Source: Paracoccaceae bacterium (GTDB taxonomy: Bacteria > Pseudomonadota > Alphaproteobacteria > Rhodobacterales > Rhodobacteraceae). Taken from it: 64,000 nt of DNA. Numbering within the stretch: position 1 is the stretch's first letter; each line of letters starts with the position of its first letter. Shown here piece by piece: positions 16,653 to 33,156 of this stretch. Below the pieces are notes generated by a model, which was not told the origin of the DNA, searched no databases, and saw only the letters and a program-made list of their open reading frames with translations. The DNA is taken from assembly GCA_007128135.1 (NCBI GenBank), contig SKYA01000047.1, positions 1 through 64,000 on the forward strand, in the 5' to 3' direction. The position numbers and the translations under genes were made by a program.

Positions 16653-16680
16653 TTGTCAAACGGCCATTTGGGCGTAATCT
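16653..16680 (+). promoter_or_regulatory. Candidate sigma70-type promoter upstream of the protease/caspase operon
   Basis: TTGTCA (16653-16658), 16-bp spacer, TAATCT (16675-16680). GGAGG Shine-Dalgarno at 16696-16700 ahead of ATG 16708. Confidence 0.4.
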
Positions 16681-16707
16681 CTAAACGTCGAATTCGGAGG
16701 ACAGCGC

Positions 16708-17808
16708 ATGCACGACCGTGCACCATATCTGATCATCGCCCTTTGCCTGTCCATGACTTCGGCGCAGGCGCAGGGGCTGGGCAGCGAATTCCGCGGAACG
16801 GACGACCCGGCAGAAATTCCGCGTGGCGTGATCGGCATCGACCTGACACCCGGCGAACAGATGCGTGGCCTGCCGCGTTTCGACAGCGCGGATCTTGAAG
16901 ACTTCATCGAAGAGGCCGTCACACGGCAGACACTGAGTGCAGAGGAACTGGCGGAAAAGTTCGGCACAGTCTCGCGCAACAGGAACGGCGAGGTCCAGAA
17001 CGAGATTGCGGGCGAGCGCTTTTTCAATGCGCCGCTGCCGGACGCACCCGAACTTGACCAGCGCTCTGCACAGGGTGCTCCGGAAATTCTGGCGCTGATC
17101 GACGATCTGACGCCGCGAAGCGCAACTCCCGGCAATGCCCGCCGCGTGGGCGATGGCACGGTCTGGCCCTATCGCTCGATTGGGCTTATCGTCGCGCTTG
17201 ACAGTTTCGAGAACATCATCGGAAGCTGCTCTGCAGCACTTGTCGGCCCGCGCACGGTGCTGAGTGCTGCGCATTGCTTCTTCGATCATGAGACGGGCTG
17301 GATCGATGATGTGCTCTTCGTCCCCGGCGTGACAGATCTGAAGACCTTCGGCCCGCCTTTCGGCGCTTTCGGCTGGGAAGACATGCATATCGCTTCGGCC
17401 TATATCACCGAGTATGACGGCACCGTGCTGTCCACTGTCCCCTACGACATCGCCATCCTTCACCTGGATACGGATATCGGTAATCATCTTGGCTGGTTGC
17501 AGGTCCAGATGGTTGATGGCCAGTTGCCCGGCTACCTGTCCAATCTGGTTGGCTATCCGGGCGACATGCCCTTCGGGACGATGTGGTGGATGGGCTGCCC
17601 GGTCAGTTTCATCAACCAGCCGCCAAAATTCACCTTTCGCAACTGTGTCACGGCGCAAGGCACCAGTGGCGGACCGATGTACAACCACCAGCCTGCCAGT
17701 GACAGCCGCTTCATCCTCAATATAAATGTCGCGGGCAATGACGAGGTCAGCATTGGCCTGACCATAGACGAAGAGCATTTCCGCTGGTTGAGCGCACTCT
17801 GGAAATGA
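16708..17808 (+). CDS. Exported trypsin-like serine protease
   Basis: 366 aa; signal peptide MHDRAPYLIIALCLSMTSAQAQG; complete triad motifs VLSAAHCFFDHE (His), PYDIAILHLDTDIG (Asp), AQGTSGGPMYN (Ser). Confidence 0.88.
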   Translation: MHDRAPYLIIALCLSMTSAQAQGLGSEFRGTDDPAEIPRGVIGIDLTPGEQMRGLPRFDSADLEDFIEEAVTRQTLSAEELAEKFGTVSRNRNGEVQNEIAGERFFNAPLPDAPELDQRSAQGAPEILALIDDLTPRSATPGNARRVGDGTVWPYRSIGLIVALDSFENIIGSCSAALVGPRTVLSAAHCFFDHETGWIDDVLFVPGVTDLKTFGPPFGAFGWEDMHIASAYITEYDGTVLSTVPYDIAILHLDTDIGNHLGWLQVQMVDGQLPGYLSNLVGYPGDMPFGTMWWMGCPVSFINQPPKFTFRNCVTAQGTSGGPMYNHQPASDSRFILNINVAGNDEVSIGLTIDEEHFRWLSALWK

Positions 17809-20807
17809 TCGCCCCGCTGCGGGCCGGGCTGTTTGCGGCGGCCTTGCTCGCAGGTGCACCTGCCGGGGCGCTGGACTTCACGCTCGATCTGGACACGGGC
17901 GGACACCGCGGTGTGATCCGCAGCCTGTCTCTGTCTGCAGATGGACGGACACTCGCCACCGGCTCGGATGACAAGACGGTGCGGATCTGGGACATTGGCT
18001 CGGCAGAGTCGGTCGTCACGCTGCGCGGCCAGATCGGTCCTGGCTCAGAGGGGATCGTCAACGCCGTGGCCCTGTCGCCAGACGCCGCCCATGTGGCGGT
18101 CGGTGGTCATTTCGCCCCTCATGCCAGCACCGGTCAGCGGTTCGGGGATATCCGCATCTTCGATACCCGGTCTGGCCGGATCATGCAGCTTCTGGAGGGG
18201 CTCGACTATCCCGTCGAGGCGCTGAGCTATGCCCCCGAACGCGATGAACTGGCTGCCTCGGGTCAGGGAGGGATGGTGGCGCGCTGGCGGGCACCCTTCA
18301 GCACCGGCGCCACCGAGGCCTTGCCCATGCTCGACACAGAGGCGATGCGCGTGCGCGGGCTGGCCCATGCGCTGGAAGGAGAGCGGCTGATCGTGGCCAC
18401 GCTCGATTACGGCCTGCGCATCTGGGACACACAAACCGATATGCTGGTCGGACAGGATCAGGGGCTGGACAGTCTGGCGGATATCCCCCTTACAGCGCTG
18501 TCGGTGGCACCGGATGGCGCGCTGTTCGCGCTGGCCGGCGCCGATGGACGGGTCGAGTTGCGCGCATCCGGCGATGGCCGGCTGGTCGCGTCGCTGCCGC
18601 AGCGCCCGTTCCGCCCCGATGCGCTGGCGCTGGGCGAGCGGCTGCTTGCGGTAGGCTGCGGATTTGGCTGCGGCACGGAGCATCGCAACGAAGTCTGGGA
18701 CATCGAAACGCTGCGCCTTGTCGCCACGCACAAGGACCATGACGCGGCGATAACTGCGGCTGCACTCATTCGCGCGACGGATGATACGCCCGAGCAGGTG
18801 CTGTCGGCAGGGGGGCGGCACAACGAGATCCTGCGCTGGCAGCCCGCGTCGGGTGAGACTCTGGCGCGCATGGCGGGGCTTGGCTTGCCGGTTTCGGCTG
18901 TCGGGCTGTCCCGCGACGGGCTGCGCCTGGCATGGGGGCATGACGACCCCTGCCCCGAACGGAACATCTGCCCGGATCAGCTTGCTCCGCTCGACAGGCT
19001 CTATGACCTGCCAGCGGGTCCGCGCGGTTTCGACGGGTCCGAGCCGCGCGACACGGCAGACGTGGATGTCGCCCCCCTCCTGCGAAGCCTGATGCGCACG
19101 AACGATGCCACGCTTGCGCTGGAAACCTCTCGCCGCAGTGCATTCGAAGGCGATGTGCTGCGGCTGGACCGCCCGGACGGGGGCACCGAACTGCGTCGCG
19201 GCGCGGGCGACGGGTACTTCCACGCATCGGCCAGCCTGTTGCCGCAAGGGGCGCTTTTGGTCACAGGCGGAGCCAACGGCATCCTTACCCTGCATGAACA
19301 GACGGGCAGCTTTTCGCGCGAATTTGTCGGCCATACCGGAACGGTTCTGGCGCTGGCGGCCGCAGAGGATGCGGGGCGGCTGGTCTCGGGCAGCGCGGAC
19401 CAGACCCTGCGGCTGTGGAACCTGCAGACGGGCACGAGCATTATATCGGGCTTTGTCGCAGGCGACCACTGGATCTGGTGGACCGAGGAAGGCTATTATC
19501 ATTCCTCTCCCGCTGCGGATGACATTGTCGGATGGCATATCAATCAAGGCCCGGACAAGGCCGCGCGCTATGTGCGCGCGCGCCAGCTGCGTCGGCATCT
19601 GCACAATCCGGCGGTGATCCGTCAGGCGCTGATCATGGGCGATTCCCTGCAAGCGACCGGGTTGCTGATGGGTGATACGCTGGGGCTTGACGCGCTTCTG
19701 GTGCATCAGCCCCCGGAATTCGATCTGCGCATCGCCGAGGAAATCCCGGCACCCGCCGGCCAGGTGGCAATCGAACTGACGGGTGCAAGCGCCGAGGAAC
19801 TTGCCGATTGGGGCATCGCGGTGATGGTCAACAATCGCCGCGTGCGGGCAGAGCCCCTGCTGCGCAGCGACCTTGCCGGGCGCTTTGTCTATCTGGTCGG
19901 GCTTGACGAGGGCGAGAATGACATCCGCGTGCAGTCGCGCGACGGGTTCGACAACATCACCGAGCGTGGCGCGCGGCGGCTGATGTCGCGGGCGGCCGCG
20001 GCACCGCGCGGGCGGTTGCATATTGCAGTCATCGGCATCGACTCCTATCCCGACCTGCCGCCCGAAGCCTGCGGCGGGCGGTCCTGTGATCTGGATTTCG
20101 CGGTCGCGGATGCGGCCGCCTTCCTGCAGACCGTGGCCGACAGGGTGGCTCCGCTGCATGAACCGGGCGAGATGCTCGTGATGCTGAGCGCCGCGTCGCT
20201 GGCGCGCGCGCCGCGCGCCACGGAAGCGGTCCGCGCATTGCTCGGCAATCGCCCCATTCTCGAGCCCACCCGTGCCGATATCCTGGACGAACTTGAGGAT
20301 TTCTTCGCCCAGGCCGGGCCGGATGACACGACCTATCTGTTCCTTGCCGGGCATGGCGGCAATATCGAGGACGGGTATTTCATCTTTCCTGCCGATGCGC
20401 GCGCGCGCGGCTCCGAACTGCGCCGCGCCTCGCTGGTGGACTGGCGCGACCTGCAGGACCAGATCGATGCCGCCTATGGGCGGCGGATGCTGTTCATCGA
20501 CACCTGCCATGCGGCCAATGCCGTCAACCCGCGCTTCCGCAAGGATGTCGCTGACAATCGCCTGATCGGCTTCACCGCAACGCTGGAAGAGGATGTCGCC
20601 ATCGAGCGCGCCGAACTCGGGCATGGTGTGTTCACCTATGCACTGATCGAGGGCTTGCGGGGAAGGGCCGATACAGAAGGCTCGGGTGTGCGGCTGATGG
20701 CGCTTACGGACTATGTCGATACGCAGGTGCGCCTGCTGAGCAACGGCAAGCAGGTGCCGGTCTATCATCTGCCCGGCACGACGAATTTGGTGCTGACCCG
20801 CCCATGA
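17805..20807 (+). CDS. Exported WD40-repeat caspase (peptidase C14-like) protein
   Basis: 1000 aa; signal MIAPLRAGLFAAALLAGAPAGA; WD40 units (LSADGRTLATGSDDKTVRIWD, VLALAAAEDAGRLVSGSADQTLRLWN); C-terminal caspase fold HIAVIGIDSYPDL...DDTTYLFLAGHGGNIEDGYFIFPAD...RRMLFIDTCHAAN (His/Cys dyad). Start overlaps the protease stop (ATGA). Confidence 0.88.
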   Translation: MIAPLRAGLFAAALLAGAPAGALDFTLDLDTGGHRGVIRSLSLSADGRTLATGSDDKTVRIWDIGSAESVVTLRGQIGPGSEGIVNAVALSPDAAHVAVGGHFAPHASTGQRFGDIRIFDTRSGRIMQLLEGLDYPVEALSYAPERDELAASGQGGMVARWRAPFSTGATEALPMLDTEAMRVRGLAHALEGERLIVATLDYGLRIWDTQTDMLVGQDQGLDSLADIPLTALSVAPDGALFALAGADGRVELRASGDGRLVASLPQRPFRPDALALGERLLAVGCGFGCGTEHRNEVWDIETLRLVATHKDHDAAITAAALIRATDDTPEQVLSAGGRHNEILRWQPASGETLARMAGLGLPVSAVGLSRDGLRLAWGHDDPCPERNICPDQLAPLDRLYDLPAGPRGFDGSEPRDTADVDVAPLLRSLMRTNDATLALETSRRSAFEGDVLRLDRPDGGTELRRGAGDGYFHASASLLPQGALLVTGGANGILTLHEQTGSFSREFVGHTGTVLALAAAEDAGRLVSGSADQTLRLWNLQTGTSIISGFVAGDHWIWWTEEGYYHSSPAADDIVGWHINQGPDKAARYVRARQLRRHLHNPAVIRQALIMGDSLQATGLLMGDTLGLDALLVHQPPEFDLRIAEEIPAPAGQVAIELTGASAEELADWGIAVMVNNRRVRAEPLLRSDLAGRFVYLVGLDEGENDIRVQSRDGFDNITERGARRLMSRAAAAPRGRLHIAVIGIDSYPDLPPEACGGRSCDLDFAVADAAAFLQTVADRVAPLHEPGEMLVMLSAASLARAPRATEAVRALLGNRPILEPTRADILDELEDFFAQAGPDDTTYLFLAGHGGNIEDGYFIFPADARARGSELRRASLVDWRDLQDQIDAAYGRRMLFIDTCHAANAVNPRFRKDVADNRLIGFTATLEEDVAIERAELGHGVFTYALIEGLRGRADTEGSGVRLMALTDYVDTQVRLLSNGKQVPVYHLPGTTNLVLTRP

Positions 20808-22468
20808 GGCTGGTGGCGGCCTTTCTGAGCGTTATGCTGGCGGCCAGTGCCGCGGGGGCGACCTGTCCCGAAGACGACGCACCCTTTCCGGCGCAATATG
20901 CGGACCCGACACTTTTCGAGCGTGGCATCGCCGCAGTGGCAGGGCATCAGCCCTGGCACGAGCCGCTTGCGGCGGTGGTCGTGCCGCACCACCTGGAAGT
21001 GCCGGATCTGATCGCGGGCGGCATCGCGCTGATGCGCGCAGATCCTCCTCGGCGGATCGTGCTGCTGTTTCCCGATCACTTCAACCGGACAGGCCGGGGG
21101 TTTGCCACCACCACCCGCAGCTTCGAGACTGTCTTTGGCATGGTCCCCAATGACACGGACGCAACCCGCCGCCTGATCGCACAGGGCCTGCCCGAATCCT
21201 GCCTTTTCGAGTCGGATCACGGCATTGGCGCGCTGCTCCCGTTTGTCGCGCATTATCTGCCGGGCGTGCCCATCGTTCCGGTTGCCCTGTCGATCCACAG
21301 TCGCAAAGCCGACTGGGACAGGCTTGCCGGACTGCTGGCACCGCTTGTCGGCCCGGACGCGGTGATCGTGCAATCAACTGATTTCTCGCATTACCTGCCC
21401 CATCACGAGGCAAGGCTACGCGATCAGCAGGTGCTCAATATACTGTCTGCGGATGACGAGGGAGCGCTGCTGCGGCTGCATCAGCCGGACCATATCGACA
21501 GCCTTGCCGCACTCTACCTGACCCGCAGGCTCACGCAGAGGCCGGCGGTGGTGCTGGCCAACAGCAACCAGCAGGAACTGACAAGCACGCAACTGGCAGA
21601 GACGACAAGCTACATGGTCATCGCCTTTTCGGAAAACAGCGGCCCCATCGCGCGTCAACTGGTGGATGAGGAGGTTCTGGTTCTTGGCGGGGATCTGTTT
21701 CTCGGGCGCCGCATGCCGCAGTTGCTTGCGGACGAACTGGCAGAGCGGCGCGTGGCCGAGGCGCTGCTTGCCGCGACCGGAGGCAGCCCGCTTGTCGTCA
21801 ATCTGGAAGGGGTGGTGCTGCAGGATATGCCCACCAACCTGCCGCATCTGACCCTCGGCATGCCCGCCGATGTGGTTGAGCGTTGGCTAAGGCGACTCAA
21901 TGTGGTCGCCGTCGGGCTTGCCAACAACCATGCGATGGATCTGGGTGCATCCGGTCTGGCCGGGACGCGGGCAATGCTGACGGGCGCAGCTGTGCCGCAT
22001 TTCGCCCATGGTGAGGCGATCGACCTTGCGGGGCTGACGCTTGTCGGATTGCGCGACATCTCGAACCGTGAGCCACCTTATGTCGATCTCGTCAGCGGGT
22101 CCGATTTTGACGCGCTCATCCAGCGCGACGGGGAGCGCCCTGTCGCGGCCTACTTTCACTGGGGGCGCGACGGGATGACCACACCTTCCGCGCGCGAACG
22201 CGTGCTTGCGCGCGAGGCCAGCAGGCGCGGCGTGAGCGTTCTCATCGGCTCGCATCCGCATGCGGCCTCTGCCGGACCCGAGTTGCTTGATGGCGGCGAT
22301 GCGATCCTGTTCTTTTCGCTGGGAAACTTTCTCTTCGACCAGACCGGCGCGGATGTGTCCGGTGCCCTGGTCGAATTGCGCATCTTCCCGCAAGGCACTG
22401 TCTTTGCCCGCCAGCTTCCCCTGCCCAATCTGTTCGACATCGCCCGAGGGCAGGTGCCGGAAAGATAG
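20804..22468 (+). CDS. Memo-like (AmmeMemoRadiSam system protein B) and CapA-like domain fusion protein, exported
   Basis: 554 aa; signal MRLVAAFLSVMLAASAAGA; Memo half VVVPHHLEVPDLIAGGIALM...IVLLFPDHF...VIVQSTDFSHYLPHHEARLRDQ; CapA half LVLGGDLFLGRRM...LVVNLEGVV...VVAVGLANNHAMDLGASGLAGTRAML...AAYFHWG...GVSVLIGSHPHAA...AILFFSLGNFLFDQ. Start overlaps the upstream stop. Confidence 0.82.
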   Translation: MRLVAAFLSVMLAASAAGATCPEDDAPFPAQYADPTLFERGIAAVAGHQPWHEPLAAVVVPHHLEVPDLIAGGIALMRADPPRRIVLLFPDHFNRTGRGFATTTRSFETVFGMVPNDTDATRRLIAQGLPESCLFESDHGIGALLPFVAHYLPGVPIVPVALSIHSRKADWDRLAGLLAPLVGPDAVIVQSTDFSHYLPHHEARLRDQQVLNILSADDEGALLRLHQPDHIDSLAALYLTRRLTQRPAVVLANSNQQELTSTQLAETTSYMVIAFSENSGPIARQLVDEEVLVLGGDLFLGRRMPQLLADELAERRVAEALLAATGGSPLVVNLEGVVLQDMPTNLPHLTLGMPADVVERWLRRLNVVAVGLANNHAMDLGASGLAGTRAMLTGAAVPHFAHGEAIDLAGLTLVGLRDISNREPPYVDLVSGSDFDALIQRDGERPVAAYFHWGRDGMTTPSARERVLAREASRRGVSVLIGSHPHAASAGPELLDGGDAILFFSLGNFLFDQTGADVSGALVELRIFPQGTVFARQLPLPNLFDIARGQVPER

Positions 22469-22527
22469 ATGTTGCGAGAATTGCCCAGAGAGCCGTAGCA
22501 TCGGTTCATTCGTTCAAGGAGCCTTCA

Positions 22528-24363
22528 ATGCGTCTGCTACCTGCCGCGTGCCTTCTGTCCGTGCTGTCGCTGCCGATGGCCACTCCTGCAAGCGCCGAGT
22601 ACGGCACACAGGTCCAGGTCTTTTTCGAGGCCACGAGCGGCGAGACGGTCCGGCGGGTCGTGAAGCTGGTCGACCCTGATCCCGGGTCCGGCCTTGCCTT
22701 TCGCTGGCACCCTGCCCCGGGCAATACCGCCCCGCTTGACGCGCAGGGCCGCGCGCAGGGTGAAGGGCGCGTGGTCTGGCGGCTGGAGGGGCTGTCCGCG
22801 CATGATCCGCGCGCCTGGCATCACAGCTTCGAGGGCAGATTGCAGGCCGGGCGTCTTGAGGGCGAAGGGCGGCTGCGCTGGCGCGACGGGCGCGAGATGC
22901 GCGGGCATTTCGTGGCCGGGCGGCTGCACGGTCCTGGCCTGACGCGCGACCTTCATGGCAATATCATTGAAGCGCAGTTCGTCGATGGGCAGGCGCAAGG
23001 CGACGGGCTTTATCGCGCGCGCGCGGGCTGGGTCTGGCGCGGAGCTTTCGTCGATGGGCTCATGCAGGGCGCAGGCCAGATGACCGAGGCGGGTGGACGG
23101 CAATATGACATGCAGATGAATGCAGGCATGCCTTCCAGCGCCGCGCCATCAGGGCTGGTGGCACATCCGCTGATCGCCGGTCTTCGCCCGGTGCAGGGCG
23201 GCGCCAGCATGGCAGACCGCGCAGGGATCTCGGTCTATGTGGATCAGCGTCTGTCCGTCAATCAATGGGCAGGATACATGTCGCGCCCGGACGGCGAACG
23301 GGTCTTCATCCATCCCGCGAATGACGCGATGATCGATATCTGGGAGGGCAACCCATCCTGGAACGCGCGGATGATGCTTACTGACAGCCTGCCCGAAGAT
23401 TGGAACGATAGCCGCGCACTTGTCGTGATCGATCTGGAAATGGAATCGGGCAGCCGGGCCACGCTGGAAGACCTCAGCCTGCAGATCGAGGCAAGCGCAC
23501 CGCATCTGCGACCGATGATTCTCGGCCGGGAGCATCTCGGCTGCACCCCGTTTCAGCCGAGTTTCGAATTTCGCAACTTTGGCTGGGGCGCGGTAAAAAA
23601 TCCGCGCATGAGGGTCCGCTTTGCCAACCCCGATGACATCGATTTTGACGACCCTTCTAGAACGCAGGACAGCACCGACTGGATTGCAGTGCCGGTGGCT
23701 GGCTTCGACGAGGGCAGCGATGTGGATTTGCGAGATGCTCTCAGCGCGCTCGGAGTGGAAATCGCGGGACTTGAAGCCGCCACTTTTCCATGCAGTGTCA
23801 GTTCGGATCTGGCTTCACGACACTCGGAGATGACGCAATGTGCCCGGGATGCCGTTCGATCGGGACTGTTCGGAGAACTTGCCGGGTATGTTGCCCAGGG
23901 CTGGGGCAAACTTCTTGGCACAAGTGCGCTGGCAGAACTGACCTATGACTGGACCGACTTCGCAGGAAACGTCACCACCGAAACCCGCAATTTCGAAGTT
24001 CCTGTTTCCCTTGGCTTGGTGGACATCACGTTGAGCATGGCGGAATGTGGCGCAGGAGGGGCCTGGCCCACAGAGGCGCGGCAATTCCACGACGACGCGC
24101 TGTCCGTCGATCGCATGGATTATGCGATTGACCTGCCGCTGCGCGGCAATCGCACGGTCGAATTTCTGGAATACGGTGTAAAGCTGCACGCTCCGCAGTC
24201 TTCCATGCACCTGTTTCAGGCGCAGGCCCGGTTTTCAGACGGGTCGATCCGGCTGTCACCGACAACGCTGTTCTACTTCCTGAACCCGCGCCTTGCGCAG
24301 TTCGACTCGGCGCTGATGCCCGCGCAATGCACCTTGACGATGGATGACACCGGCGGGTGCTGA
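22528..24363 (+). CDS. Exported MORN-repeat protein with uncharacterised C-terminal region
   Basis: 611 aa; signal MRLLPAACLLSVLSLPMATPASA; tandem MORN-like units (FEGRLQAGRLEGEGRLRWRDGREMRGHFVAGRLHGPGLTRDLHGNIIEAQFVDGQAQGDGLYRARAGWVWRGAFVDGLMQGAGQM). AAGGAG ribosome-binding site upstream. Confidence 0.78.
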   Translation: MRLLPAACLLSVLSLPMATPASAEYGTQVQVFFEATSGETVRRVVKLVDPDPGSGLAFRWHPAPGNTAPLDAQGRAQGEGRVVWRLEGLSAHDPRAWHHSFEGRLQAGRLEGEGRLRWRDGREMRGHFVAGRLHGPGLTRDLHGNIIEAQFVDGQAQGDGLYRARAGWVWRGAFVDGLMQGAGQMTEAGGRQYDMQMNAGMPSSAAPSGLVAHPLIAGLRPVQGGASMADRAGISVYVDQRLSVNQWAGYMSRPDGERVFIHPANDAMIDIWEGNPSWNARMMLTDSLPEDWNDSRALVVIDLEMESGSRATLEDLSLQIEASAPHLRPMILGREHLGCTPFQPSFEFRNFGWGAVKNPRMRVRFANPDDIDFDDPSRTQDSTDWIAVPVAGFDEGSDVDLRDALSALGVEIAGLEAATFPCSVSSDLASRHSEMTQCARDAVRSGLFGELAGYVAQGWGKLLGTSALAELTYDWTDFAGNVTTETRNFEVPVSLGLVDITLSMAECGAGGAWPTEARQFHDDALSVDRMDYAIDLPLRGNRTVEFLEYGVKLHAPQSSMHLFQAQARFSDGSIRLSPTTLFYFLNPRLAQFDSALMPAQCTLTMDDTGGC

Positions 24364-24378
24364 GCGCGGCGCGCGGCC

Positions 24379-26040
24379 TCAATCCCTGCTCTCGGGCGGG
24401 GCGCGAAGGCTGGTTGCGAGGATATCCATGACCTCCAGCCAGAAGGCGCGTTCCGTTACGTCGGCTTCCGCCAGCGTCTGAGACAACCTGACCGGTGCAT
24501 CCTCTGCGAAACGGTCGTGGTATTCGATGGCGGCCAGCACCTGATCGACACTGCATCCGTCGGGGCGGATGTCATAGACGGGCGCGTCGCGTTCCAGAGT
24601 TGCACAACGCTCAGCCGCCGCAAGATCGAGGCGCAGCAGCGCCGCCAGATCGCCCAGCACCAGCGGCGAGTCGCCAAAATAGCTGTGGCCCAGAAGATCG
24701 GCCACGATATCGGAGGCATCGAGCGTGTCCAGCCCCGCAAGGCGCACGGGTTCGCCCGAGGAATCGCCCGCTCGCGGCCCGCCATGAATGCGCCGCGAGA
24801 CCAGAAGCGCGCGATCATTACGCGAGGCATAGAGCGAGACGCTCTGCGCGTGCTGTGCCAACCGATCGAGCCGCACGCTCAGTTCGTTGCGGTCCACATC
24901 CGGCGCCCCGAGGATGACATGTCCCAGCGCCCGGTCGGGATGATCGCGCAGGAACACGTCAAGGGCCTCCAGAAGATACCGGTTGCCCATGGAATGCGCG
25001 ATCACATGCAATCTGCCAGGTCCGCCCGTGGCATGCAGCAGGAACTCGACCAGGGCCGGACGCGTCGCCAGCACGTTGTTTGCGTCGGCCAGATAGCCAA
25101 GCAGGGAACCGCGCGAGGGCCATGAGTAATAAAGCGCCTTGCCCGGAAACTCGAGATCATGCGCCAGTTGCGCCGCCCTGAGCGCACCGTCATGGAAGGT
25201 CACATTGTAGCCATGGATGAACAGCAGCCGGTCCTCGGCGCTGCAGCAGCCCTGCGCGAACAGGTTTGCCGCAAGCGTTTCGATACTGGCCAGAACCATA
25301 TGCTGCATCGGGTCGGGATGACGGGTCAGGCTCCAGACCGCCGGCTGCTCGATCCGCCCGATGCGGTGCGTGGGCGGGATGGTGACTGTCAGCCGACCCA
25401 GTGTCAGCCCGGCAAGGTCCACCCCGAAACGCATGGCCGGGTCGCCGGAGCCGGTGTCGTTGCGATTGGTCCCGAACCAGACCGGCACTGCAATCGGCTT
25501 GCCCACGCGCGCGATCTCGGGGGCGTCCAGACGGGCCTGCAATTCGGCCAGTTCGGCGTCGATGAACGCAAGGTCGTCAGGCGCGAATTCCATCACCAGC
25601 GCGCGCAATGCCTCGAGCCGTGCCAGCAGGGCCGGGTTTGCAGGACCAAGGCGCGCGACAGCGGCATCATAGGCGGCAATGCCCATCTCGACCGCCTCCT
25701 CAAGGCGGTCCAGACGCAGGTGCGCCTCGGTCAGGAGGTCGAACACTTCCGTGCGGGCGGCGTCACTGGCTGGCAGAAGGTCAGGCAGTTCCCCGAGAAG
25801 ATCGATCACGAGTGAGGGCTGGTCCTGCCCGAGCAGATGGCGGGCGATATCCAGCCGTGTCTGCACCGTATCGTCCATCGCCAGCAGCATGTCGATACCG
25901 GCGGCATCAACCCGTCCAGAACTGACCAGCGCCTCGAAAGTCTCGAACGCGGCGCGGTCGGGCAGTGCGGGCTCGGCCCCGGCCAGGCCGGACAGGAGCC
26001 CACCTGTGACGAAGGTTGCAGCGAATACAAGTCTGCGCAT
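24379..26040 (-). CDS. Exported alpha/beta hydrolase (DUF900/esterase-like) with N-terminal helical region
   Basis: Signal MRRLVFAATFVTGGLLSGLAGA; FGTNRND; LFIHGYNVTFHDGALRAAQLAHDLEFPGKALYYSWPSRGSLLGYLAD; nucleophile elbow LHVIAHSMGNRYLLEAL; GAPDVDRNEL. Start trimmed to 26040. Confidence 0.83.
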   Translation of the reverse strand: MRRLVFAATFVTGGLLSGLAGAEPALPDRAAFETFEALVSSGRVDAAGIDMLLAMDDTVQTRLDIARHLLGQDQPSLVIDLLGELPDLLPASDAARTEVFDLLTEAHLRLDRLEEAVEMGIAAYDAAVARLGPANPALLARLEALRALVMEFAPDDLAFIDAELAELQARLDAPEIARVGKPIAVPVWFGTNRNDTGSGDPAMRFGVDLAGLTLGRLTVTIPPTHRIGRIEQPAVWSLTRHPDPMQHMVLASIETLAANLFAQGCCSAEDRLLFIHGYNVTFHDGALRAAQLAHDLEFPGKALYYSWPSRGSLLGYLADANNVLATRPALVEFLLHATGGPGRLHVIAHSMGNRYLLEALDVFLRDHPDRALGHVILGAPDVDRNELSVRLDRLAQHAQSVSLYASRNDRALLVSRRIHGGPRAGDSSGEPVRLAGLDTLDASDIVADLLGHSYFGDSPLVLGDLAALLRLDLAAAERCATLERDAPVYDIRPDGCSVDQVLAAIEYHDRFAEDAPVRLSQTLAEADVTERAFWLEVMDILATSLRAPPESRD

Positions 26041-26065
26041 CGGGCCTTGTCCTTCGGATGAACGC

Positions 26066-28369
26066 CTAGCTGACGGGAACATTGTCAACCGAATAGACAT
26101 AGACTGCGCCGCGCTGGCCGCGTTGCGCCGCGCGACGCGCCGCAAGCGACGCGCCGCCACGCGTGGTTTCGGCCCCGGCCATGGCCTCGATCATCGCGCC
26201 GAAGCCCGACATGGCCGCAGGGCCCCGACCAATGGCGCGCACGCCGGTCTGTTCCAGAAAGGACAGGTCGAGCGGGTTTGACTGCGGCTCGGCCGCAGTG
26301 ACGATGACCATGAGCCGCTCGCGCCCGAAACTGGTATCGTCAAACTCGATGATCTCTTCGGAAAAGACAGCGTTCGCACTGCCCGCCTCGGCCGCACGCA
26401 GGCGCACAGGCGTTTCCAGCATCGAGGTGATGGCGTAATTCGAGGCGATATAGAGGATGTTGACATCAACCGGCGTGCTGCCCGTGTTCTCGACGCGGAC
26501 ATGGGCCGTGTTGCCGGGCTGGACAATGCTGTTGCGGTGCAGCACCAGTTCTTCGCCGCTGCCAAGCGGACTCATGAAGCCCGGCAGGCGGGTCACCTGC
26601 ACGGAGACATCGCTTTGCGCGAAATCGTCGAACTGGGCCAGGCGCGACAGATTCGTGGCGCGATAGACCGCTCCCAGCGAACTGCGCAGCCAGAGCGTGA
26701 CTGCCGACAGATCATCGCTGTCAAGCGGCCGCGAGAACGGCCGCTCGGTCGGGCGCAGCGACAGCGTCGCGCTATTGTCCAGCAGCCAAAGGCGGGGGGT
26801 GTCCGGTTGCGCACTTCCGGCCAGATATCGCGCTGGGTCATCGGACTGGGCAGCCTGCGCGCGCATGAGATCCAGCACCTCGGCTTCGCTGCGGATGACA
26901 AGGCGCAGATCGGCCGCCTCTCCGGGTGCGACAAGTCGCAGGCGGGCGGGCATGCGCTGATCCGCAGCGATGGTTTCGAGCAGGTCATGCACCTTGCGGG
27001 CAAGCGCGGGGTGGCCAGCAGCGCGCGTTGGAGGCGCAACGCTCAGTTCGAAATCGACCACTGTCTCGATCACCAGCGCATAGGCATTCTGCGGTATGTC
27101 GGCCAGCGCGATGGGTGGCAGTTCAGGGTCGGGCTGGTCCTGAACCTCGCCGAGTTGGCTGCGCAGCGCCGTCACATTGCGGATCTCGACCGCACCAAGC
27201 GCGCGCTCAATGCCATGGGCCGGGTCTGCCAGCACGGCCAGCCGGGTTCCGGGCGCCAGCAGATGCATGTGCCCCGCCGCGATTTCCCGCATATCCCCCT
27301 GCCCCGTGATCCGCCATTGCGGCACATGGCCAAGCCCGTCAGAGGTGTTGAAAAGGCGTTCATTCAAAGCCCCTTCGAACAGCGGCGAGGGACGGCTGCG
27401 GTTCATGCCGAGATAGGCGTGATGGATTGCCTGCCCCAGATGGCGATACTGCATGTTCGGGTTCTCGCGCATCCGCGACAGCAGGGTGAATGTGAAGAGC
27501 CCCATCTGCAGTGCCGCGTCGCTATGGGGCGGCAAGGGCAATTCCGGGGTCTCTTCCGTGGTCTGGGCGGCGAAGAAAGCGACCATCGGGGCGAGGTCCT
27601 CTTCCAGACCGACCTGACCGGCGGGGCCGAAAATGCTGCGCGGCCGCATCTGCTGCGGACCAAGCGCGCGACTGCGGGCGGGGGCCCACATATCGGGCGG
27701 AATGTCATAGCGGCGCAGGTCCACCTTGCGGCTGACCTCGCCCTCGGGGATGGCATCGAGCGCGCGGGTGATCGTGGCGGAATGACAGCAGTCGAACACG
27801 GCCCAGACCCGCGCGCGCTTGCGGCGAATGGCCGTGATGTCATCGCGTATGTCCTTGTCGACATAGCCATTGGGCCAATGTCCCAGCGCGCGGGTCATGC
27901 GTTGGACATCCTTCGGCATGAAGACCTGATCACGTCCGTCCACTTCCTCATCAGGAAAGCGGGCGGGTTGTTCGATGCCATGCCCCGCGAAATGAAGCAT
28001 GACGAAATCACCGGGACCGGCGTCTTCGGCCAGTCGCTGCATTTCGGCCCGGATCGCGGCCAGCGTGGGTTCCGCCTGCGCGACGTCAAGGCCGGTCGCC
28101 AGCACCCTGACATCTTCGGGGGCAAATTGCACAGGCGCCTCGTCAAGCAGATAGGCCCGCATCATGAGCGCATCATTGTTCGGTCCTGCCAGCCATTCGC
28201 TGCGAAAAAGATTGGGGTATTGGGTCACTGCAACCAGCAATGCGTGATTGCGCCGGGGGCGGGTCTGTGCCTGTGACCCGAGCGGTGCCAAGGCCGGAAG
28301 CGCGCCCAGACCAAGGGCCGATCCGGTGCCCAGAAGAAAGGATCGACGGCGAAGCGGGACAGCAGACAT
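26066..28369 (-). CDS. Tat-exported caspase family protein with DUF4384-like C-terminus
   Basis: 767 aa; twin-arginine signal RRRSFLLGTGSALGLGALPALAPLGSQAQ; caspase core HALLVAVTQYPNL...DFVMLHFAGHGIEQ...ARVWAVFDCCHSATITR; C-terminal ELVLHRNSIVQPGNTAHVRVENTGSTPVDVNILYIASNYAITSML...RLMVIVTAAE. Confidence 0.86.
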   Translation of the reverse strand: MSAVPLRRRSFLLGTGSALGLGALPALAPLGSQAQTRPRRNHALLVAVTQYPNLFRSEWLAGPNNDALMMRAYLLDEAPVQFAPEDVRVLATGLDVAQAEPTLAAIRAEMQRLAEDAGPGDFVMLHFAGHGIEQPARFPDEEVDGRDQVFMPKDVQRMTRALGHWPNGYVDKDIRDDITAIRRKRARVWAVFDCCHSATITRALDAIPEGEVSRKVDLRRYDIPPDMWAPARSRALGPQQMRPRSIFGPAGQVGLEEDLAPMVAFFAAQTTEETPELPLPPHSDAALQMGLFTFTLLSRMRENPNMQYRHLGQAIHHAYLGMNRSRPSPLFEGALNERLFNTSDGLGHVPQWRITGQGDMREIAAGHMHLLAPGTRLAVLADPAHGIERALGAVEIRNVTALRSQLGEVQDQPDPELPPIALADIPQNAYALVIETVVDFELSVAPPTRAAGHPALARKVHDLLETIAADQRMPARLRLVAPGEAADLRLVIRSEAEVLDLMRAQAAQSDDPARYLAGSAQPDTPRLWLLDNSATLSLRPTERPFSRPLDSDDLSAVTLWLRSSLGAVYRATNLSRLAQFDDFAQSDVSVQVTRLPGFMSPLGSGEELVLHRNSIVQPGNTAHVRVENTGSTPVDVNILYIASNYAITSMLETPVRLRAAEAGSANAVFSEEIIEFDDTSFGRERLMVIVTAAEPQSNPLDLSFLEQTGVRAIGRGPAAMSGFGAMIEAMAGAETTRGGASLAARRAAQRGQRGAVYVYSVDNVPVS

Positions 28370-29836: not shown

Positions 29837-30184
29837 CTATCGCGCGCAGCCGATGCAGCACGTCAGAACCGGGTCGAGATCCAGTCGGGACAGGCCGATG
29901 AAGTCACCACATTCCGAACACCAGCCGAATGACCCGTCGTCGAGCCGCATGATCGCTGCCTGTATGGCTCGCAACCGCGCCACGCGCCTTGTATCCTGCG
30001 CCGCGGCCATGGCCTGCTGCTGCATGGCGTCCATCCGGCTCAGCCGTCCGACACTCTGCTGATCCAGTTCCACGGGACGACGATCCAGGGCTGACTGCGC
30101 AGATGCCGTTCGCACCGCTTGCGCCTCGGCAAGCAGCCTGCCGCGATAACGCAGTGCGATTTCCTGATCTGTCGGGATACTCAT
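29837..30184 (-). CDS. TraR/DksA C4-type zinc finger protein
   Basis: 115 aa from MSIPTDQEIALRYRGRLLAE; C-terminal zinc finger AIMRLDDGSFGWCSECGDFIGLSRLDLDPVLTCCIGCAR. Confidence 0.85.
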   Translation of the reverse strand: MSIPTDQEIALRYRGRLLAEAQAVRTASAQSALDRRPVELDQQSVGRLSRMDAMQQQAMAAAQDTRRVARLRAIQAAIMRLDDGSFGWCSECGDFIGLSRLDLDPVLTCCIGCAR

Positions 30185-30442
30185 GGACCCAGCTATCCAG
30201 AACTTGACGCGGGTTTCAAGCTGCAACCGCAAACTGTCCACCTGCGCGAGCGGCGCAGGACGGCGCCGCAGGTTTCGCCGTGTTCCGAGCAGATAGGAAC
30301 CTCTGTCTGTCCGTCGCGAGCGGCAAATTACCGGCACACAATGAGTGATCTGTCGGGACGACTTGATTTGCAATCGCATACCGGGCAGCCTTGCTCCTGC
30401 GGCCAGCCGACTCTCCGGCAGAGGACAGGAGGACACAAGGAC

Positions 30443-30985
30443 ATGCATGGCGACACAGAGCAGACCTGGCTGCTTGAGGCCAGGCGCAAACTGTTCGGAT
30501 ATTCCTGCGCGCTCTGCTCCGATCTTCCGGGGGCTGAAGATCTCTATCAGGATACGGTTCTCCGGGCCATGACAGCGGGATCAGTGCCCAGAGACGCCGT
30601 GGCCTATCGTGTCTGGCTGTTTCGGATCATGCGCAATCTGTGGATCGACCGATTGCGGGCCGATGGACGTCTGCCCATCTTTGATGACGCGGCTGAGATC
30701 GACGGCCTGAGCAACGGTCACGCCGACGACCATGTGGTCAATGCCCTGGCGGTGCGGCAGGCCTTTGCCAGTCTGTCAAAGGCACATCGCGACATTCTGG
30801 CACTGGTCGACATATGTGGCTTCAGCTATGCGGAAGCGGCTCAGACGCTGGAAGTGCCCATCGGCACCATCATGAGCCGCCTCAGCAGCGCCCGCGCCGC
30901 GCTTGCCGCTAGGATGGAAGACGAGAAGAACGTGATTGCATTGCCGCTGCGCCGAAGCGCACGCCGAATTGGAGAAGGCGGATGA
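30443..30985 (+). CDS. ECF-type RNA polymerase sigma factor
   Basis: MHGDTEQTWLLEARRKLFGYSCALCSDLPGAEDLYQDTVLRAM; FRIMRNLWIDRLRADGR; region 4 LSKAHRDILALVDICGFSYAEAAQTLEVPIGTIMSRLSSARAAL. Confidence 0.9.
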   Translation: MHGDTEQTWLLEARRKLFGYSCALCSDLPGAEDLYQDTVLRAMTAGSVPRDAVAYRVWLFRIMRNLWIDRLRADGRLPIFDDAAEIDGLSNGHADDHVVNALAVRQAFASLSKAHRDILALVDICGFSYAEAAQTLEVPIGTIMSRLSSARAALAARMEDEKNVIALPLRRSARRIGEGG

Positions 30986-31728
30986 AAACGCCGGTTTCGG
31001 AAACCCGACTGAACGCATTCGTCGACAGTGAATTATCACCGTCAGAGGCGGCACTGGTCGCCGAAGCCGTCGCGGCAGACCCCACGCTTGCGAAACGCGT
31101 CGTTCGCCTTCACAAGATCAAGGCGGCGCTGGCGGCGTTCGGTGATGACCTACCGGTGCCGGAACTCCCACAGCCCGCACCGCACCGTCGCACCGCAAGG
31201 GGCAGACTGGTCGCGTCGGGAGCCATCGCCGCGACAGCCCTGTTGCTGCTGGTTTCCGTTTCCGTCCCGGTTTCGGCGCCAGAGCAGGGCGCGGCAGACC
31301 TGCCACGTCTCGCACAGCATGATCTCTGGCTGAGCACCACAACCGAAGCCGGGTCGCTCGAACTGCCCCGGGGTTTTGAATGGATGGGACCCGTTATGCG
31401 CGCCAGTGGTTTGCAGCTCGTCCATTCCCACAGCCATGACGACATCATGCATTTCGGCTTCAAGGGGGCAAATTCCTGCCGTCTCAGCCTGTTCGTCGCA
31501 ACTTCGGCCACGCGTGACACAGCGCTGCAGGTGACATTGTCAGACCAGGTGCAGCATGCACAGTGGCAGACAGGACGCCTTGCCTTCGAAATGATCGCGC
31601 GCGACATGGCGCCCGCGCGTTTTGCGACTGTCGCGACTGGCCTTCAGCAAGGAAGCCGCGAGCATCAGGCAGAGTCGAAGCTGCGCATCGCGCTGCTCGA
31701 GTCGGCGCGGCTTCCCTGCCTGATCTGA
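30982..31728 (+). CDS. Transmembrane anti-sigma factor
   Basis: 248 aa; N-terminal MKTPVSETRLNAFVDSELSPSEAALVAEAVAADPTLAKRV (zinc-less ASD-like); single TM GAIAATALLLLVSVSVPVS; start overlaps the sigma gene stop. Confidence 0.83.
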   Translation: MKTPVSETRLNAFVDSELSPSEAALVAEAVAADPTLAKRVVRLHKIKAALAAFGDDLPVPELPQPAPHRRTARGRLVASGAIAATALLLLVSVSVPVSAPEQGAADLPRLAQHDLWLSTTTEAGSLELPRGFEWMGPVMRASGLQLVHSHSHDDIMHFGFKGANSCRLSLFVATSATRDTALQVTLSDQVQHAQWQTGRLAFEMIARDMAPARFATVATGLQQGSREHQAESKLRIALLESARLPCLI

Positions 31729-31848
31729 TTTTTTTTCCTGCTTGACCGAATATTCTGCATCTCCGAGTCGTCTTGAAAGATGAGGGGATGCGACAAGTTG
31801 GCGCAACCCCTCGCACTGACAGGCACTGGTCATGGGAGGACATTCAGG

Positions 31849-33156
31849 ATGCCAAGGAAAGAACGCGGGCTCATCGAGCTTTATCATGACGACCCCGAAC
31901 GCGCGGAATATCTGGTTTTCGGTCGCAAGGCGGGGCCGGACCGGCGCGGGTTCCTGAAAGGCGCGGGGCTGGCGTCGATGGGCGCGGTGCTGGGCACGAC
32001 GATACCTTTCAGCGCCAACATGCCTGCCGGGCTGATGCCGGCGGCACTGGCCGAGACTGTCAGCGACTTCACCTTCGACGCCAAGCACGCTGACATGATC
32101 GTGCACAACGACCGCCCTGTGAATGTCGAGGCGGCGGTGCATCTGCTTGATGATGACGTGACACCCTTTGACAAGCATTTCATCCGCAACAACGGCACCA
32201 TGCCCATGCCGATGAGCAAGGCCGACTGGCGCCTGAAGATCGACGGCGAGGTCAATGACGAGCTGGAACTGTCCTATGACCAGCTGATGAACGAGTTCGA
32301 GCATGTGACCTTCCGCGCGCAGCTTGAATGCGGCGGCAACGGTCGGGCGGGCTTCAACCCGTTGCCACGCGGAAACCCCTGGACCATCGGCGCGATCGGC
32401 AATGCCGAATGGACCGGCGTGCGGCTGTCCGACATCCTGCGCCGCGCCGGGCTGAAGCCCTCGGCCGTCTATACCGGTCATTACAGCTATGACGAGCATC
32501 TCTCGGGCGATCCAGACCGCCCGTCCATCTCGCGCGGGGGGCCCATCGACAAGATGATGGACCCGCACACCATCGTCGCGATCAAGATGAACGGCGAGGA
32601 TATCCCCATCGAGCACGGCTATCCCGCACGCGTGGTTGCACCGGGCTGGGCGGGGTCGGTCAGCCAGAAATGGGTGACGCGCATCTGGGTGCGCGACCGC
32701 GAGCATGACGGGCCGGGCATGACCGGCCTGAGCTATCGGATGCCGCGCTTCCCGGTCGAGCCGGGTGCCGAGGTGGCGCATGAAGACATGATGGTGATGG
32801 GCTCGATGATCGTGAAATCCGCGATTACCAACCCGGTGGCGGGTGCCGAGGTGCGCGCAGGTGCACCGTTCGAGATTCGCGGTCAGGCTTGGGCCGGGGA
32901 CAACCATGTGGTGCGGATGGAAACCTCGATCGATTTCGGGGCAACCTGGCAGACCGCTGAACTGCATGCCCCGCCAAACCGCTATTCCTGGCAACGCTGG
33001 AGGCAGACCATCATCCCGCCACAGGCCGGGTATTACGAGGTCTGGTCGCGCGCAACCGACAACCAGGGCAACAGCCAGCCCATGGTGGTGCCCGGCTGGA
33101 ACCCCCGCGGCTACCTGAACAATGCCTGCCACCGCATCCATTTCATGGCCGTGTAA
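31849..33156 (+). CDS. Sulfite dehydrogenase/oxidase-family molybdenum enzyme (SorA/SoxC-like), Tat-exported
   Basis: DRRGFLKGAGLASMGAVLG Tat signal; RNNGTMP; QLECGGNGRAGF (Mo-ligand Cys); GYPARVVAPGWAGSVSQKWVTRIWV; C-terminal dimerisation domain. Confidence 0.85.
   Translation: MPRKERGLIELYHDDPERAEYLVFGRKAGPDRRGFLKGAGLASMGAVLGTTIPFSANMPAGLMPAALAETVSDFTFDAKHADMIVHNDRPVNVEAAVHLLDDDVTPFDKHFIRNNGTMPMPMSKADWRLKIDGEVNDELELSYDQLMNEFEHVTFRAQLECGGNGRAGFNPLPRGNPWTIGAIGNAEWTGVRLSDILRRAGLKPSAVYTGHYSYDEHLSGDPDRPSISRGGPIDKMMDPHTIVAIKMNGEDIPIEHGYPARVVAPGWAGSVSQKWVTRIWVRDREHDGPGMTGLSYRMPRFPVEPGAEVAHEDMMVMGSMIVKSAITNPVAGAEVRAGAPFEIRGQAWAGDNHVVRMETSIDFGATWQTAELHAPPNRYSWQRWRQTIIPPQAGYYEVWSRATDNQGNSQPMVVPGWNPRGYLNNACHRIHFMAV

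Follow-up and report, generated by a model that had tools for sequence, protein, structure and literature searches.

A convergent block of six genes

The window (the whole 64,000-nucleotide stretch analysed here, from a contig of a Paracoccaceae bacterium) carries a block of six genes arranged as two converging sets, one on the plus strand (16708-24363) and the other on the minus strand (28369-24379):

16708-17808, plus strand: trypsin-like serine protease, predicted exported (366 aa; Pfam Trypsin 3e-5)
17805-20807, plus strand: WD40-caspase, predicted exported (1000 aa; Pfam WD40 1e-25, Peptidase_C14 9e-10)
20804-22468, plus strand: Memo-CapA fusion, predicted exported (554 aa; Pfam PGA_cap 1.5e-23, Memo 4e-13)
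22528-24363, plus strand: MORN-repeat protein, predicted exported (611 aa; Pfam MORN weak in the window)
24364-24378, no strand: gap between the converging operons (15 nt; convergent layout seen again in loci L035, L036 and L039)
24379-26040, minus strand: DUF900 alpha/beta hydrolase, predicted exported (553 aa from the ATG at 26040; Pfam DUF900 5e-39)
26066-28369, minus strand: Tat-signal caspase (767 aa; Pfam Peptidase_C14 1e-12)

The trypsin/WD40-caspase and WD40-caspase/Memo-CapA junctions are both ATGA overlaps and a 59-nt gap separates the Memo-CapA gene from the MORN gene; the minus set begins with the Tat-caspase, the ATG of the DUF900 hydrolase following 25 nt later. A longer, GTG-started DUF900 reading frame (to 26160) is unlikely, given that it overlaps the caspase and that the ATG at 26040 yields a good signal peptide. 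The reading frames, overlaps, gaps and opposing stop codons (~15 nt apart) of the original prediction were all re-found among the ORFs of the window, and its gene set for the plus strand stands, with only the start of that set (placed at 16653, slightly early relative to the trypsin ORF at 16708) in need of correction. No tRNA gene is present in the window, leaving tRNA-linked integration without support. The region to the right of the island (29837-33156) holds a DksA/TraR-type zinc-finger gene, an ECF sigma factor, a likely anti-sigma gene and a Tat-signal sulfite dehydrogenase resembling SorA.

The domains first read from the translations were borne out by Pfam matches for five of the products and, for the MORN protein, by its orthologues and a fold model. 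The trypsin-like protease has a region of ~150 residues separating the signal peptide from the catalytic domain; S1 trypsin-like membership is indicated by the Pfam Trypsin score (24.3 bits against a cut-off of 20.6) and by an aligned triad, H189, D247 and S320, which is kept in every orthologue covering it (a second family included), in agreement with the full His/Asp/Ser motif set initially described. In one congener, G032, the trypsin gene (L037:1673-2774) reads as two overlapping frames, because of a frameshift or a fault in the assembly.

The WD40-caspase joins N-terminal beta-propeller repeats to a C-terminal Peptidase_C14 domain (dyad H850/C901, in 10/10 orthologues), while the Tat-caspase (dyad H130/C195) has a long C-terminal region beyond its catalytic domain. 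Both lie above the Pfam cut-off for Peptidase C14, and the His/Cys dyads, correctly predicted for the two caspases, are invariant in orthologues wherever covered. A model of the Tat-caspase, of low overall confidence (pLDDT 66), has a catalytic domain that matches metacaspases (E 3e-11) and MALT1, pointing to a metacaspase/paracaspase fold. Individual WD40-caspases show local peculiarities: that of G259 (L096:11709-12914) reads DTCRA instead of DTCHA with the catalytic Cys retained, and that of CCMM004 (L053:8334-8522) has a proline-rich insertion of repeated PPILGGP units within the propeller region. Elsewhere in the source genome there is a third Peptidase_C14 gene with a stronger match (E 5e-38; G000:C188:10125-10784, L001).

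Across 13 Memo-CapA proteins, the Memo histidines H62, H92, H139 and H196 and the CapA residues D297, E335, H376, H484 and H486 are invariant. The Pfam MORN match of the window copy falls under the cut-off (E 6e-4) and is strong in orthologues (1e-16 in L096, 2.5e-13 in L129); the N-terminal half of the fold model matches MORN crystal structures, and the C-terminal domain (~residues 230-611) is conserved and has no Pfam match. The DUF900 hydrolase presents S350 within an AHSMGN motif, with D381 and H452 as candidate partners, all conserved in 9/9 proteins.

Recurrence of the block and of its parts

The block is found, in part or whole, in 6/37 genomes of the genus, with island proteins of congeners at 57-81% identity; most carriers are metagenome-assembled contigs with truncations. 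All six genes, with order and convergent layout kept, occur in a Natronohydrobacter metagenome-assembled genome (G025, JAFIEL010000048.1), where the contig end cuts the Tat-caspase, and parts of the island are present as far as the contigs reach in four others (G017, G032, G003 and G035). The flanks differ between carriers and, going by our reading of N-termini, are presumably LctP/2-hydroxyacid dehydrogenase and MFS genes in the window, rpoD/dnaG in G025, sugar transport genes in G017, and fatty-acid-type and TRAP genes in G035. The left-flanking LctP-2-hydroxyacid dehydrogenase pair is retained without the island in five congeners, implying that the block was either gained at the window site or lost in those congeners.

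Beyond the genus, the trio of WD40-caspase, Memo-CapA and MORN genes recurs in that order, at 38-54% identity, in three other genera, represented by CCMM004 (L053), G259 (L096) and G338 (L097). Trypsin and Tat-caspase genes are absent next to the trio in L053 and L097, whereas in L096 a relative of the Tat-caspase lies immediately upstream in the same direction, followed by a divergent HtrA-type protease and a response regulator. Pairwise distances of the core proteins correlate among all three (r 0.98-0.99), as shared ancestry would also predict. Full-length MORN-family matches in the 298 family genomes come from just G259 and G338 besides the source genome; the remaining 'MORN' candidates (291/298 matches) were discarded as ordinary MORN-repeat proteins matching profile positions ~100-200 only. 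A contig scan with two peptide patterns returned at least five loci, a lower bound in that it missed G259 and G338, presumably because the patterns differ there. The CCMM004 trio (L053:1694-6711) is preceded by a LysR gene and by a divergent pair that we take, on our own reading, to resemble a DUF2309/NADH-dehydrogenase inorganic-carbon transporter. Alignment of the sequences upstream of the trypsin and Tat-caspase genes shows purine-rich ribosome sites and, close to the start region of the Tat-caspase, a CTTGAC; a regulator motif clearly common to both did not emerge.

The best support for the genes forming a functional set comes from a different alphaproteobacterial family, in which content is kept while order and orientation have changed. 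Five of the six island families (all but DUF900) lie together within ~12 kb in 4/17 genomes of one genus, the trypsin and MORN genes facing Memo-CapA, WD40-caspase, small genes (one DUF4760-like) and the Tat-caspase; the locus adjoins polA in 4/4 of these genomes, and in G955 a second trypsin-domain gene adjoins it. The wider samples covered 386 genomes for the class and 349 for the phylum, and most species are missing from them. WD40-caspase, Memo-CapA and MORN form the core, and DUF900, which accompanies the block only in the window's genus, is an accessory.

These distributions bear on whether the two sets are neighbouring operons that are functionally separate and face each other by chance. 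There are indeed two transcription units, the trio stands alone in L053 and L097, and the Tat-caspase family also occurs without it. Against this, co-localisation outlasts species divergence, changes of flank and, in the other family, rearrangement, so that this explanation is largely refuted and we regard it as highly improbable; only the tie of DUF900 to the other genes remains genus-limited. A chance neighbourhood is itself ruled out, the genes lying together in congeners and also, in a changed arrangement, in a second family. The expectation that the genes would co-occur in other genomes was thus confirmed, within the genus and, reordered, across families; the six-gene set first proposed survives as one functional set but not as one fixed unit, DUF900 accompanying the block in the window's genus only.

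Parts of the island also keep other company. The Tat-caspase family is present at full length in ~20/298 family genomes, in many cases with a second, divergent caspase 5-8 kb away, and in L096 and L098 its relative adjoins an HtrA-type protease and two-component genes; the Tat-caspase relative therefore has other partners too. Five further genera have a caspase beside DUF900 in divergent orientation. Protease, caspase and lipase-type hydrolase accordingly recur jointly in more than one arrangement. The locus annotated for gene content, L098 (3536-13490), comprises a caspase, a patatin lipase, a histidine kinase, a response regulator, an HtrA-type protease and a divergent Tat-caspase relative; similar Rhodobacteraceae loci (L099-L102 and L107) were checked for the caspase pair.

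Evidence for export and relation to known caspase systems

Signal peptides were called with a simple rule of our own (charged start, hydrophobic core, small-x-small site) rather than SignalP. The rule is positive for 5/6 island proteins in the window and for nearly all orthologues; the window trypsin copy fails solely on the charge of its n-region (MHDRAPYLIIALCLSMTSAQA-QG), and its orthologue in L036 passes. The same rule, allowing any in-frame start, fires on 25/50 window genes, many of them encoding membrane proteins, and is therefore weak by itself. The Tat-caspases of the genus have an RR[SA]FLLG motif in 4/4 cases and those of the second family TRRTLLVG in the copies read, with other Rhodobacteraceae relatives carrying a Sec-type leader in its place. 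Six signal peptides, one of them twin-arginine, had been predicted originally: five are recovered by the rule and the Tat motif is kept in the genus, but the window trypsin falls short on charge.

Two further features bear on localization. Past the N-terminus, no strongly hydrophobic stretch is present in the island proteins, and cysteines are conserved: pairs 285/289, 383/389 and 756/761 of the WD40-caspase and residues 339, 422, 438, 507 and 601 of the MORN protein in 10/10 orthologues each, and C21/C133 of Memo-CapA in 12/13 proteins (both missing from the Rhizobium protein). The conserved cysteine pairs would fit an oxidising compartment, giving the proteins the look of disulfide-bonded periplasmic ones. 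From the recurrence of signal peptides in orthologues, the lack of other strongly hydrophobic stretches and these cysteine pairs, we infer that all six products are apparently exported.

The closest published relatives share components with the island and depart from it in design. Caspase or trypsin domains are also used in VMAP/MoxR-vWA conflict systems, and in VMAP-type NTP-dependent systems the caspase always has a neighbouring alpha/beta hydrolase (PMC7159879), a pairing likewise found here, with DUF900 next to a caspase not only in the window but also in congeners and the five other genera. Those systems, however, are NTPase-centred, with vWA, MoxR or VMAP components (PMC7159879), whereas the island set is apparently exported and its six proteins have no Pfam match to NTPase, vWA, VMAP/MoxR/STAND/GTPase or EAD domains, upholding the predicted distinction from NTPase-linked caspase systems; a STAND protein stands beside Memo-CapA in Rhizobium only. 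Both island caspase domains weakly match the model of the two-gene EACC1-associated caspase system (PMC7159879; NCBIfam NF047832), but their scores of 44.5 and 33.6 bits fall short of the cut-off of 140, and the EACC1 partner was not seen. Caulobacter, also an alphaproteobacterium, has a multi-protease system, the CARD-NLR-like LypABC, that requires its trypsin-like domains for cell lysis, but LypABC has an ATPase and a CARD-like domain and lacks caspase, Memo-CapA and MORN (PMC13236601). In Canu caspase-nuclease defence loci, a caspase of paracaspase-like fold is thought to activate a partner enzyme, there an MBL-fold nuclease that is absent from the island (PMC12799240).

Among prokaryotic metacaspases/orthocaspases, exported homologues, WD40 fusions and multi-caspase operons have been documented: a 2012 survey classed 98/671 prokaryotic metacaspases as membrane proteins, the majority having a helix at the N-terminus that may be a signal peptide, yet described no set with Memo-CapA, MORN and trypsin and assigned no function (PMC3501461). 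The predicted departure from known caspase systems thus holds for the NTPase-free gene set but not for export as such, which was already known for caspase homologues. System-specific PADLOC models were unmatched: the search gave just its generic caspase model and, through the WD40 region, HEAT-ARM_XIII. A TIGR04336 match is obtained for the Memo domain, which is here fused to CapA and predicted exported; AMMECR1 and radical-SAM genes, the partners expected of an AmmeMemoRadiSam system, were not seen among the neighbouring genes identified in the window or at related loci. Literature searches found no description of such a gene set, those combining Memo and caspase returning nothing. As the defining features of VMAP, EACC1 and PADLOC systems are lacking, the set looks like an undescribed caspase system belonging to none of them.

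A possible protease cascade at the envelope

We propose, giving it about an even chance, that the island encodes a set of exported proteases working without an NTPase, probably as a zymogen cascade directed at the cell envelope. At its site of action, the periplasm or cell surface, the core WD40-caspase/Memo-CapA/MORN would act with a trypsin-like protease and a caspase exported through Tat or Sec, the lipase-type DUF900 being added in this genus. The trypsin-like protease and caspases would be made as inactive precursors and activated in the envelope. Sequential cleavage would be set off by a periplasmic cue, sensed either by the trypsin-like protease or through the WD40 or MORN domains. The WD40 and MORN parts may recognise or hold partners; lipid binding by the latter is not assumed here, MORN repeats not being proven lipid binders (PMC7725318). 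Once active, the caspases could process proteins of the envelope or activate the hydrolases DUF900 and CapA, whose action on lipid or polymer would lead to envelope remodelling or breakdown. We infer the cascade order, the cue, the substrates and what the system is for, be it envelope stress, cell death or defence; no activation site or substrate was detected for the island proteases. Since trypsin and Tat-caspase are absent beside the trio in L053 and L097, the core may function without them.

That same absence, together with the stable site in the second family, would also suit maintenance of the envelope or of a surface polymer centred on Memo-CapA, with the proteases processing or quality-controlling exported proteins and neither cascade nor death involved. 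CapA is a member of a capsule-polymer enzyme family, which adds to the case. We nevertheless consider this reading unlikely: two caspases and a trypsin are an unusual load for simple processing, and capsule or polymer export genes were not noticed adjacent to the island.

The proposed envelope cascade would have a wider consequence. In the studied bacterial caspase systems that we found, the protease is coupled to NTPases, nucleases or signals derived from nucleotides (PMC7159879, PMC12799240), which implies action inside the cell; if the proposal is true, caspase-type proteolysis in bacteria operates outside the cytoplasm too. The island is in addition a compact and testable gene set, with orthologues named, for exploring the purpose of exported bacterial caspases.

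A doubtful but possible alternative is an exported conflict system: under attack by phage, mobile element or competitor it would bring about the death or lysis of the cell, or of the attacker, much like cytoplasmic caspase/trypsin systems but from the periplasm. The patchy distribution (6/37 genomes) at differing chromosomal sites favours it, and trypsin, caspase and the pairing of caspase with alpha/beta hydrolase recur in known conflict systems (PMC7159879). Set against this are the lack of an NTPase or phage-sensing part, PADLOC matches that are generic (caspase) or driven by WD40, ordinary flanking genes (purA, polA, rpoD, transporters), the stable position beside polA in 4/4 second-family genomes, and a single plasmid match.

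That plasmid, Rhizobium leguminosarum pRL31b3 (CP050083.1, L120:8511-25602), is nonetheless in the alternative's favour. Facing its full-length Memo-CapA, in convergent orientation, is a homologue of the MORN C-terminal domain that stands alone (27% identity, E 1e-26), with TIR-nSTAND1-WD40, CHAT-TPR-S and endolysin-like GH108/peptidoglycan-binding genes as neighbours, hinting at a tie with conflict systems; we treat these as leads, not proof. Bolder still, and on balance improbable, would be a self-contained periplasmic system for cell death or envelope defence, in which an NTPase-free trypsin-caspase cascade turns lipase-type and metallo-hydrolases against the envelope of its own cell, and Memo-CapA and the MORN C-terminal domain are exchanged with cytoplasmic TIR-STAND systems. 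The pRL31b3 plasmid is conjugative, and the region has the look of a conflict locus, with two TIR-STAND genes, the first being the TIR-nSTAND1-WD40 gene.
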